Shown: positions 45,577 through 54,780 of the stretch, in pieces
How positions within the stretch are numbered: the first letter of the stretch is position 1
Layout of the letters: the number at the start of each line of letters is the position of its first letter
From: an uncultured Candidatus Saccharibacteria bacterium
Lineage (GTDB): Bacteria > Patescibacteriota > Saccharimonadia > Saccharimonadales > Saccharimonadaceae
Assembly (NCBI GenBank): GCA_947169915.1
Contig: CAMVRN010000004.1
Location: 1-64,000, forward strand
Direction of reading: 5' to 3'
Length of the DNA stretch: 64,000 nucleotides
Position numbers and translations under genes: made by a program
The notes under the pieces: model-generated
What the model saw: the letters and a program-made list of their open reading frames with translations, nothing else
The model's database searches: none
Told to the model about the DNA's origin: nothing

Positions 45577-45915
45577 GAAAAAGTCCCTCGGTGCCAGATA
45601 GGTAAGGGTGGGCATCACCTATCCAGCACTGAGGGGCTTTTTATACACCCTATAACACTTCCTTCAAGATACCGGGAGGACCCCGGAAGCACGACCCACC
45701 TCACACAAAATATGGGGCCCGCCGGTTATAGGGATTGCTATGCCTTCGAAGGGTCCCGCTCAAAAGTGGAGGTAATACTTATAAGACTTAAAACCATTGA
45801 AGAAGAAATTAAAAGTCCGAGGGGTTTCAAAAGCACGCAACTTTTGTTACACTAAACCGTGTAACAACCGTTATAATTTATTTAGGTACAGTTTAGGGCT
45901 TTAAAACCCTAACTT
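45577..45915 (-). ncRNA. Candidate structured RNA gene, about 340 nt, unknown class
   Basis: The minus strand has a near-consensus promoter (TTGACT-17-TATAAT, extended -10) and 270-300 nt later a strong terminator, with no ORF on that strand. Between them are several good pairings: TTAGGG/CCCTAA near the 5' end, a 9-bp perfect stem TTGTTACAC/GTGTAACAA (45844-45867), a long-range 9-bp pairing CCCTATAAC (45648-45656) with GTTATAGGG (45725-45733), and an enclosed CCGGG/CCCGG hairpin (45672-45686). I tested by eye for tmRNA ends, RNase P core motifs and the SRP tetraloop region and did not find them. This is inference until a covariance search is run. Confidence 0.6.
45582..45642. terminator. Large bidirectional terminator hairpin
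   Basis: A 22-nt arm AGTCCCTCGGTGCC... pairs with ...GGCACTGAGGGG-type arm at 45617-45638 (two mismatches, two wobbles), with a 13-nt loop. TTTTT follows on the plus strand (for pth) and TTTTTC on the minus strand (for the candidate RNA). Confidence 0.8.
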
Positions 45916-45921
45916 GTGTTA

Positions 45922-50623: not shown

Positions 50624-53614
50624 ATGTTGTCCTCTATTATTCATGTAATTCTGTCACCCCTTATTTGGATCCCGCTTGTCGGGCTGTTTGCCTACCTCAC
50701 TTACCGAAACTATAAGAAGGCCAACCGTCTCCAAGTCCTAAACGTTGACTCAGTGCTTTTGATGCTCGAAATCCCGCGCACCAACGACAAAAAAGAGCTC
50801 GCCGCCGAGCAGCTTTTTGCCTCACTTCACGGTATTCTTCGCGATAAAAACGAACTTAGAAACTCCGGTGGCGTCCAAGAACACTTAAGTTTCGAAATCG
50901 TCTCCGCAAAAGGCCAGATTCGCTTCTATGTCTGGGTCCCAAAAATCCTTCAATCCTTCGTTGAGGGCCAGATTTATTCTCAATACCCGACCGTCCAAAT
51001 CCATAAAATGGACGAAGATTACGTCGATAACCGCCACAAACACACTATCGTTTATTCTAGCGAGCTTGCCTTGACTGAAGACAGCGCACTTCCGATTAAA
51101 ACCTTCGATTCTTTCGAAGTCGACCCGCTCGCTGGTATTACTGGGACGCTCGCTAAGCTCGACGCCGACCACGATGAAGAGCTCTGGATTCAGATTATCA
51201 CCCGCCCAATCGCCGACGACTGGCACAAAACCACGACCGACACCTGGATTCAAAAAGTCAAAAGCGGTGGCAAGACTGGGCTTTTCGGCACAAATTTCGA
51301 TGCCCGCTATCTTCTCCAAATCTTCGGTGCCCTTTGGAAACCGCCTGAAGGCGGCGTCGGAAGCGACGGTAAAACAGCTGTAGAAATCTCCGAACGCGAC
51401 AAAACTCGCATCTCCAAAGCGGAAGAAAAAGCCACGAAACTCGGCTATGAAGTCAAAATTCGCCTAGTGTACCTCGGCAATGACGAAATCAACGCCAAGC
51501 TCAATATGCAGGCTCTTGTCGGTACGTTTAAACAGTTCAACTCGACCAACCTTAACGGTTTCCGCATCGAAGGCTCCACTTTTGAACCGTCCGCCCTCGA
51601 TTCTTACAAACTCCGCCAATTCACCGACCATGGCTTCATTCTAAACATCTCCGAGCTTGCTTCCGTCTATCACCTTCCACACACTTCCGTCGAAACTCCA
51701 AACATCGTCTGGGCTTCTTCAAAGACCGCCGAGCCTCCTGCCAAACTTCCTGTTTTAACCGGCAATCCAGCCGAAGACGAGAACGTTTCCGCATTTGGCC
51801 TTACCAATTTCCGTGGCATCAATCATCAATTCGGTCTCCTTCGCCGTGACCGCTCCCGCCACGTTTACATTATCGGTCAAACTGGCGCAGGTAAATCCGG
51901 TCTTCTTGAGCTCTTTGCTCTCTCCGACATCTTTTATAATCAAGGCTATTGTATTATCGACCCGCATGGCGATTTTGCTATCAACAATCTCCGCTTTATT
52001 CCAGAATCTCGTATCAAAGACGTCGTCTATTTCAACCCTGCCGACACAGCTCATCCTGTTGCCTTCAACCCGCTTGAACTCTCCGACCCAGCCCGCAAGC
52101 CAAATGTTTCTTCTGAAGTTATCGGCGTTCTTAAACGCATGTTCGGCGAAAGCTGGGGCCCTCGCCTCGAGCACATCCTCCGCTATACGCTCCTCGCCCT
52201 TCTCGACCGCCCAGAAACCACTCTTCTCGATATTTCCCGCATGTTAACCGATAAAGATTTCCGCAAGGAAACTCTCGACTACTGTAAAGATGTTACTGTT
52301 CTTCAGTTCTGGAAACAAGAATTCGGTACATGGGGCGACAAACAAGTTACCGAGTCTATTGCTCCTGTTCTTAACAAAGTTGGCGCCTTTACTGCAAACC
52401 CAATCATCCGCAATATCATCGGCCAGCCTAAATCTTCGTTTGATGTCAGAAAAATCATGGACGAAGGCAAAATCCTCGTCGTCAACCTCTCTAAAGGTCT
52501 TATCGGCGAAGATAATGCTGGCATCCTTGGCGCCTTCCTAGTTACCAAAGTTCAGCTTGCCGCCATGTCCCGTTCTGATATTCCAGACGTCAAAGACCGT
52601 CGCCCATTCTACCTATACGTTGACGAGTTCCAAAACTTCGCTACCGATTCCTTTGCCGTTATTCTTTCCGAAGCTCGTAAATACGGTCTAAACCTTACTG
52701 TAGCTAACCAATACATCGCACAAATGACCGAATCGGTCCGCGATGCCGTTTTCGGTAACGTCGGCACGACCATCTCCTTCCGCGTTTCCGCCGATGACGC
52801 TCCGCTCCTCGTAAAGCAATTCGAGCCAACTTTCGACGCGTCCGACCTCATTCAAATGAATAACCGCCATTTCATCATTTCCATGATTATCAATGGCGAA
52901 AAAGTTCCGGCCTTCTCCGCAACAACTTTGTCTATTCCAAAACCACCAACCGACAACCTCGACGAAATTATCGAATCTTCTCGCCGACAATATTCGCGCC
53001 CTCGTGCCGAAGTTGAAGAAGAAATCCGTGAAACTATCGAAGCTTCTGAAAAATACAAGAAAGAACTATCCGACAGCGGTCGCATCGCTGGCGAACAGGG
53101 AAACATCGTCCGCGATGACTACTCTGGCGCTCAGTTTATGTTCAAGTCTTCCGACATCATGAAGTCGAAGTCATTCAATCCTAGCCTGGCCCAAGAAAAG
53201 TCCGCACAAACGGCGTTTAAGGCCTCTTACGATGCAAGCGTGAATGATGTTAAGGTTGAGCCTCCAAAGCCCTCAGAAGTGATTTCTGGAGTTTCTAGAA
53301 GCATAAATGAGCCAATCGTTTCCTCTTCTTCTGACCAACAAAAGAAAAACAAGAAAAAGAACAAAAACCGAACAAAACGCAATCGAGGGCCTCGAACGCC
53401 ACAAGAGGCTTTCCGAGATATGAAGCTCTCCCCGAATACCGCTGAGGAAAAAGACCGCCCAGGCTTAAAAGACCTCGGTAAACTCATCGAGGAACAAAAG
53501 AAAGCCGAAGAAAAGGGAACCGCTAAACCCGAAACTAAGCCAGAACCAAAACCTGAACAGAAGCAGGGAAACAAGCCAGTCGACGACCAGCATCGCTTCG
53601 ATATTAAACGCTAA
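50624..53614 (+). CDS. TraG/TraD-like type IV coupling ATPase
   Basis: A 996-residue protein. An N-terminal membrane helix (about 6-26) is followed by a 350-residue domain, then a HerA/VirD4-type motor: Walker A IIGQTGAGKSGLLE near 418, DPHGDFA, Walker B YLYVDEFQNFA near 664 and the motif LTVANQYIAQM. The last 200 residues are Lys/Glu/Pro-rich and disordered. No relaxase or VirB genes are in this window, so a pilus or DNA-uptake motor, or a secretion ATPase, is as likely as conjugation. TAAAAT (50610-50615) ends 8 nt before the ATG. Confidence 0.85.
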   Translation: MLSSIIHVILSPLIWIPLVGLFAYLTYRNYKKANRLQVLNVDSVLLMLEIPRTNDKKELAAEQLFASLHGILRDKNELRNSGGVQEHLSFEIVSAKGQIRFYVWVPKILQSFVEGQIYSQYPTVQIHKMDEDYVDNRHKHTIVYSSELALTEDSALPIKTFDSFEVDPLAGITGTLAKLDADHDEELWIQIITRPIADDWHKTTTDTWIQKVKSGGKTGLFGTNFDARYLLQIFGALWKPPEGGVGSDGKTAVEISERDKTRISKAEEKATKLGYEVKIRLVYLGNDEINAKLNMQALVGTFKQFNSTNLNGFRIEGSTFEPSALDSYKLRQFTDHGFILNISELASVYHLPHTSVETPNIVWASSKTAEPPAKLPVLTGNPAEDENVSAFGLTNFRGINHQFGLLRRDRSRHVYIIGQTGAGKSGLLELFALSDIFYNQGYCIIDPHGDFAINNLRFIPESRIKDVVYFNPADTAHPVAFNPLELSDPARKPNVSSEVIGVLKRMFGESWGPRLEHILRYTLLALLDRPETTLLDISRMLTDKDFRKETLDYCKDVTVLQFWKQEFGTWGDKQVTESIAPVLNKVGAFTANPIIRNIIGQPKSSFDVRKIMDEGKILVVNLSKGLIGEDNAGILGAFLVTKVQLAAMSRSDIPDVKDRRPFYLYVDEFQNFATDSFAVILSEARKYGLNLTVANQYIAQMTESVRDAVFGNVGTTISFRVSADDAPLLVKQFEPTFDASDLIQMNNRHFIISMIINGEKVPAFSATTLSIPKPPTDNLDEIIESSRRQYSRPRAEVEEEIRETIEASEKYKKELSDSGRIAGEQGNIVRDDYSGAQFMFKSSDIMKSKSFNPSLAQEKSAQTAFKASYDASVNDVKVEPPKPSEVISGVSRSINEPIVSSSSDQQKKNKKKNKNRTKRNRGPRTPQEAFRDMKLSPNTAEEKDRPGLKDLGKLIEEQKKAEEKGTAKPETKPEPKPEQKQGNKPVDDQHRFDIKR

Positions 53615-53645: not shown

Positions 53646-53674
53646 TTGCCTTATATATGTATTTATGTTATAAT
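53646..53674 (+). promoter_or_regulatory. Promoter of candidate small RNA
   Basis: TTGCCT (53646-53651), 17 bp, TATAAT (53669-53674) with TG at 53666-53667. Confidence 0.75.
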
Positions 53675-53680
53675 AAATTT

Positions 53681-53779
53681 GTAGCGTTGTTAGATATCGC
53701 GATGCTACAGTCCTATTTTACTCATTCATAATGAGTTCCTTTCGCAAAATCCACCCCTAGCGGGTGGGTTTTGTTTTTC
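53681..53779 (+). ncRNA. Candidate small RNA, about 99 nt
   Basis: It begins at the predicted start of a good promoter and consists of three hairpins. The first is GTAGCGTTG/CGATGCTAC (9 bp, two wobbles). The second is a perfect CTCATT/AATGAG with loop CAT. The third is an 11-bp terminator AAAATCCACCC/GGGTGGGTTTT with loop CCTAGC-type, followed by GTTTTTC. It contains no ORF with a ribosome-binding site. The unpaired linker TCCTATTTTA and the TTCCTTTCGC segment are candidate pairing regions. It resembles no class I can name. Confidence 0.65.
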
Positions 53780-53809
53780 TTATGCTTTACCTCTGTTGCT
53801 TCCCTGTTA

Positions 53810-53815
53810 TATAAT
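53810..53815 (+). promoter_or_regulatory. -10 box before the 46-codon ORF
   Basis: TATAAT at 53810-53815 with TTACCT 17 bp upstream. Confidence 0.5.
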
Positions 53816-53836: not shown

Positions 53837-53977
53837 ATGCCTTTTAGTTATACATCTTCAACGACTATTATCAGAGAAGAACTAGAGAGAATCGCAAAGG
53901 GAATTGAGCGCCAAAACGAACTTATCGAAAAGCTTCTACCAAAAGAAAAGCCAGCCAAAAAGGGAAATAAAGCCTAA
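53837..53977 (+). CDS. Small ORF, 46 aa, coiled-coil-like
   Basis: Too short for the track. ATG at 53837 is preceded by AAGGAGG at a good distance. The product begins MPFSYTSSTTIIREELERIAKG and continues as an amphipathic helix with a Lys/Pro-rich end (LLPKEKPAKKGNKA). The strong ribosome-binding site, upstream -10 and host-like codon use argue that it is translated. The function is unknown; a short helical partner peptide is possible. Confidence 0.6.
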   Translation: MPFSYTSSTTIIREELERIAKGIERQNELIEKLLPKEKPAKKGNKA

Positions 53978-54780
53978 ATTTTCAGATTTAGTAATTCTCT
54001 ACCCCTGTTCCACCCCTGTTATTTTTGAGCTTAAGACACCAGCCACCTCTAAAAGCCCCCCAAACTCCCCAATTTATTCAAAAAATCTTCTAAAATCCAC
54101 GGGTGAAATCCAGAGGGAAACATTGAAACAAAATTACACACAAAAAACGCAAAACAAAAGTCGCGGCAAAACCCGCCAAACGTCCAAAGCCGTCCGAACA
54201 TGCAGTTCCATTCTTCCATACATTGAATGTCGCACAATAACTCTTTTAAGACATTACACTTATGGTTAAAAGACGATAAAGTAATCGTCTATAACAGAGC
54301 ACTATATAAGCTTAACTAATAAATTTACGAATTTTCGCAGGTTGTAGTTCCGCGTACATGTGCATATTTGCTTCGTTATTTACGTTTATAATTACCAAGC
54401 TTTCAGCCATTCAGCCAGCTCCTATAATTAACCTTACGTCACGGATATTTACACCAAAAGTTTTCCACCGCTATTTAAGCGAATTCTGAATTCCATCGCG
54501 GCAAATTTGCTCCAAAAACACACTCTGCATAAGCCAACTTATGCATTTTGGGGCTTTTGTTCGGGTTTTTGGCCCATTTTCCGAACATTGGCCCAATTTT
54601 CCCGATTTTCGCTTTTCCCCGCTTCCCTCTTGATTTTTTCGTGTTTTTATTGTGTTGTATGTTTTTTCAAAATTCCCTCTTTCGTAATTTCATTTTTGCA
54701 AAAGAACAAAAACCGAACAAAATAGGGAAACATGGAAATAAACAGAGGTAAGACCCTATTTTACCCCTGTTGTACCACTG
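53978..54780. other. A+T-rich noncoding stretch
   Basis: No convincing gene on either strand; track ORFs here lack ribosome-binding sites and host codon use. It holds two ACCCCTGTT copies near 54003 and 54015, a perfect hairpin AGACGAT/ATCGTCT (54271-54290), another TGCATAAG/CTTATGCA (54526-54545), isolated TATAAT boxes (near 54390 and 54423), and an imperfect inverted repeat AACAGAGGTAA/TTACCCCTGTT near 54738-54765. It could be a decayed insertion or a regulatory desert. Confidence 0.5.

Follow-up and report, generated by a model that had tools for sequence, protein, structure and literature searches.

The window analysed here, a stretch of 64,000 nucleotides, is part of a 770-kb draft genome of Saccharibacteria (TM7). 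It carries a gene for a TraG/TrwB-like coupling ATPase, whose stop codon lies at 53612-53614 and whose Pfam domains bear out an earlier note that had placed a candidate small RNA downstream of such a gene (Table 1). A TraG match was found in 60 of 60 relatives; in GTDB, most relatives of this TraG belong to Candidatus Saccharibacteria, and the nearest ones largely come from the ruminant gut. Beyond the candidate lies a gene for a protein of 46 amino acids, which has a separate promoter (TTTACC-18-TATAAT, 53786-53815) as well as an AAGGAGG site; similar small ORFs occupy the same place in three relatives (G031, G129 and G117), and the promoter is conserved in the first of them. The product appears coiled-coil-like, and a few species have distant homologues in the corresponding position. 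Further downstream, a dif-like inverted repeat is probably a Xer recombination site; most relatives, some of them from other families, retain it downstream of traG, and the sign of the window's GC skew is the same on both sides of it.

Table 1. Positions of the candidate RNA, its parts and other features of the window
Feature	Position	Strand	Evidence or detail
TraG/TrwB-like coupling ATPase gene, 996 aa	50624..53614	+	Pfam TrwB_AAD_bind (E 6.6e-8), T4SS-DNA_transf, TraG-D_C
Extended -10 promoter TTGCCT-17-TGTTATAAT	53646-53674	+	sequence and scan; class enriched versus shuffles
Predicted small RNA, ~99 nt	53681..53779	+	fold z -7.2; MFE -38.1 kcal/mol
Hairpin H1, 9-12 bp including G-U pairs, loop UUAGAUAU	53679..53710	+	fold, z -4.2; core stem 53681-53689 with 53700-53708, lengthened stem 53679-53690 with 53699-53710
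Hairpin H2, 7 bp, loop CAU	53720..53736	+	fold, z -4.0; stem 53720-53726 with 53730-53736
C/U-rich single-stranded linker H2-H3, possible Shine-Dalgarno pairing region	53737..53743	+	sequence; inference
Intrinsic terminator H3 (13 bp) and T tail	53744..53779	+	independent terminator scan and fold; first strong terminator after traG; stem 53744-53756 with 53762-53774
46-aa small protein gene, outside the RNA	53837..53977	+	homologue in G022
dif-like inverted repeat AATGTCGCACAATAACTCTTTTAAGACAT	54226-54254	+	present in 148/174 genus genomes, nearly always once
~330-nt structured RNA gene beside dprA	45583-45916	-	promoter 45950-45922; conserved; covariation

Promoter, hairpins and terminator of the candidate

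The promoter reported in the earlier note is present where it had been placed, with a -35 box TTGCCT (53646-53651) that matches the consensus at four of six positions, a spacer of 17 nt, and a -10 box TATAAT (53669-53674) with TG at the extended -10 position. A plain -10/-35 scan of the window did not rise above chance (5 found, 6.3 expected). The strict class, defined as TGnTATAAT together with a -35 box of at least 4/6 and compared with dinucleotide shuffles of the window, has seven sites versus 0.27 in the shuffles, an enrichment of about 25-fold, and five of the seven stand upstream of an ORF or a tRNA gene; the six sites other than that of the candidate precede an ORF (four), a tRNA gene (one) and a second RNA that lacks an ORF (one). 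Because the strict class is so enriched and mostly found upstream of genes or tRNA, the promoter at this locus is probably real.

From the probable +1 at about 53681, 67 nt past the traG stop, the predicted RNA runs through three hairpins, all inside the 99-nt span that had been described. The 9-bp hairpin announced at +1 was recovered, and flanking wobble or U-A pairs extend H1 to 12 bp. For the other two hairpins the earlier description holds in kind and errs in stem length: H2 has the 3-nt loop and a stem of 7 bp instead of 6, and H3 is a terminator with a T tail (loop CUAGC, then TTTTC) and a stem of 13 bp instead of 11. Terminators resembling H3 occur at many other loci in the genus. The whole fold is far more stable than dinucleotide shuffles, and the H1 and H2 part, taken without the terminator, still reaches a z of -4.9, with 0 of 500 shuffles equally stable. 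No ORF with a ribosome site lies inside the RNA, in agreement with the absence of an ORF claimed before; the sole ATG frame has nine codons (53702-53731) and lacks a Shine-Dalgarno sequence. The sequence thus supports a promoter, hairpins, a terminator and the absence of an ORF, and with its own promoter, an intrinsic terminator and no translated ORF the candidate has sequence features typical of intergenic, intrinsically terminated sRNA candidates. Fold stability, the enrichment of the promoter class and the position of most such promoters in front of genes or tRNA make a short non-coding transcript from 53681 likely.

The main rival reading, which we regard as somewhat unlikely, takes the same elements as an elaborate 3' end of traG, with H1-H3 lying in its 3' UTR, H3 serving as the terminator and the promoter weak or unused. 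It is favoured by the position of H3, 130 nt past the traG stop with no other plus-strand terminator between them save H1, which has no proper T run, and by a -35 box with only those four matches; the strong extended -10, improbable by chance and at the right distance from H1, nevertheless argues against it. Another reading, suggested by the position of the hairpins upstream of the 46-aa gene and by the overlap of the nine-codon frame with H1 and H2, would make them an attenuator or leader of that gene. It is very improbable: the frame has no Shine-Dalgarno sequence, the minimum-energy fold contains no competing anti-terminator, and, since the promoter of the 46-aa gene follows the terminator and is kept in relatives without H1 and H2, G031 among them, the RNA is probably not a leader.

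Distribution of the candidate and the traG-dif interval

In the nearest available relative, G031, whose TraG is 87% identical, a short terminator comes directly after the traG stop codon and the conserved small-gene promoter comes next; the promoter of the candidate, H1 and H2 are all absent from this region. The earlier note had held that loss of the promoter or of pairing in close relatives would count against the RNA gene, and in a sense this is what G031 displays; the presence there of just a terminator also favours the reading of H1-H3 as the traG 3' end. Among 174 genus genomes, blastn with the RNA gave mainly terminator matches outside its own genome, none of which spans H1 and H2. A covariance model based on this one sequence had matches in 43 genus genomes, and the 14 inspected were unrelated terminators after coding genes or near RNase P RNA-like ends and were rejected as homologues; no H1/H2 homologue was recognized with it in the 173 other genus genomes. 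Applied to the orthologous loci fetched, the same model identified no relative, and the positions downstream of traG in relatives hold other content or none. An exact search for the H1 pattern in viral and genome contigs and blastn against plasmids and phages returned no match, and Rfam 15, at gathering and relaxed thresholds, gave chance matches only (best 26.4 bits versus a cut-off of 55, rnk leader).

Because the blastn, covariance-model and exact searches gave no H1/H2 homologue, the candidate appears to be an orphan of its species as far as these data reach, that is, one genome of the species, many compared genomes that are drafts, and a model from one sequence. The covariance analysis of homologous loci proposed earlier met no homologue at the orthologous loci fetched. 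With no homologue in the genus to align, conserved structure with compensatory changes, a supporting criterion for sRNAs, was not found, and any function is hypothetical. Of the compact small-RNA gene first claimed, the separate, terminated, non-coding unit is upheld by the sequence statistics; no homologue was found in the 173 other genus genomes.

In other species the interval that separates traG from the dif-like site is either empty or occupied by unrelated small ORFs, which marks it, on the sequences compared, as a fast-changing slot. This suits the view of the candidate as a recent, non-functional arrival in the slot, transcribed or not, since slot content differs and is unrelated in many species and H1 and H2 occur in one species only; the promoter, structure and terminator are, however, intact and well ordered, and we consider this view distinctly unlikely. 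The proximity of the candidate, about 450 bp, to the single-copy dif-like site might also suggest that it works as DNA, as an element of the chromosome-dimer resolution region, and not as an RNA, a reading that is hardly credible given that the element is not conserved together with the dif-like site and that H1 depends on G-U pairs; its three internal G-U pairs are more in keeping with a hairpin in RNA than with an operator palindrome in DNA.

Two further observations concern the surroundings of the dif-like site. A second palindrome, GACGATAAAGTAATCGTC, lies just past it (54270-54300, plus strand), with similar spacing in many relatives. The octamers CCCCTGTT and CCTCTGTT form dense one-strand runs near dif in relatives (for example at loci L043, L129 and L132), which in several species extend into the traG 3' coding region; they may be a polar sequence that directs the translocation of DNA.

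A structured RNA gene beside dprA

The strict promoter-class test also led to a second RNA, 8 kb from the candidate and beside dprA. It was found by blastn in 33 of 36 genus genomes tested, this one included, the other copies being 71-87% identical, while 24 genomes from other families gave no match; the locus was checked in 29 relatives, and dprA adjoins the RNA in every one of them. Its promoter is conserved as well. Of the 66 pairs in the consensus structure, 26 have changes on both sides; 98% of cells pair versus 37-52% with the partners slid, and compensatory changes occur in 134 cells versus 38 in shuffles. When 393 genomes of the order were searched with a covariance model of its core, 122 of them, from 17 genera, had one copy each; these comprise nearly all tested members of the genus, about 35 genomes from the other genera in its family and a single, weak match in a different family. 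The RNA has no Rfam 15 match, is not a tmRNA or tRNA according to ARAGORN, and the 6S model has no match in the genus.

One invariant stretch, AGUAUUACCUCCAC, contains the anti-Shine-Dalgarno-like ACCUCC; another, GUGUGAGGUGGGU, could pair with GCCCACC, which is invariant in the terminator loop, a possible long-range contact that would involve GGUGGGU. The dprA-side RNA has the look of a genuine conserved RNA gene of the genus, and it is probably a new RNA family of Saccharibacteria; the contrast exposes the missing conservation of the candidate downstream of traG. With family-wide conservation, clear covariation and no Rfam family, it is the far stronger case and worth pursuing, whereas the candidate alone amounts to one predicted, species-limited sRNA.

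Interpretation and comparison with known RNA classes

In summary, the candidate is an ordinary small-RNA candidate restricted to one species. The favoured reading, to which we give a probability of roughly 0.5, is that of a lineage-specific, Hfq-independent, small stand-alone RNA gene that may also end traG transcription. RNA polymerase would start at about 53681 at the extended -10 promoter and stop at H3, giving an RNA of about 99 nt with three hairpins and two short single-stranded linkers, in which the 5'-end hairpin and the terminator stem would protect against decay; H3 would also terminate read-through transcription from traG. The RNA would have arisen in, or been kept by, a single lineage only. 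Transcription, stability and any target are what we infer from this arrangement: if the RNA acts at all, its most likely mode of action would be pairing of the exposed C/U-rich linkers with the Shine-Dalgarno regions of mRNAs without Hfq, perhaps assisted by KH proteins of the KhpA/KhpB type, as KH_KhpA-B is present in 20 of 20 genomes. The target prediction with the unpaired linkers proposed in the earlier note gave little in this respect, the duplex energies between linkers and translation-initiation regions being only slightly better than those of shuffled controls and not discriminating. A more specific proposal, in which a lineage-specific, Hfq-independent regulatory RNA was born in the variable slot next to dif and acts on the 46-aa gene or on the DNA-transfer genes of this episymbiotic Saccharibacterium, is quite improbable. 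Full-text searches of the literature brought up no study of sRNAs in Saccharibacteria, and the transcript would therefore be a test case for the use of sRNAs without Hfq.

As regards known classes, three assignments were rejected. An Hfq-dependent sRNA does not agree with the absence of Hfq (PF17209) from 20 of 20 relatives, this genome included (controls match in 5 of 14), nor a CsrB/RsmZ-type RNA with that of CsrA (PF02599) from 20 of 20 genomes and the lack of GGA loops; no described family fits either, the best Rfam 15 score given above lying below the gathering cut-off. The candidate resembles CsrB-type sponge RNAs in having several small hairpins, and differs in its loops (UUAGAUAU, CAU and CUAGC), which contain no GGA, and in belonging to a lineage without CsrA. 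Type I 3' UTR sRNAs are transcribed from a promoter situated close to where a coding gene ends; the start of the candidate shortly after the traG stop and a terminator in common with the host gene are alike, although its promoter lies outside the coding region and any link to TraG function would be conjectural. Compared with generic intergenic bacterial sRNA genes, the candidate differs in being found in one species only, in being predicted from sequence and in coming from a lineage without Hfq, and it is like them in having no ORF, its own promoter, a length of about 100 nt, hairpins and a terminator with a U tail.
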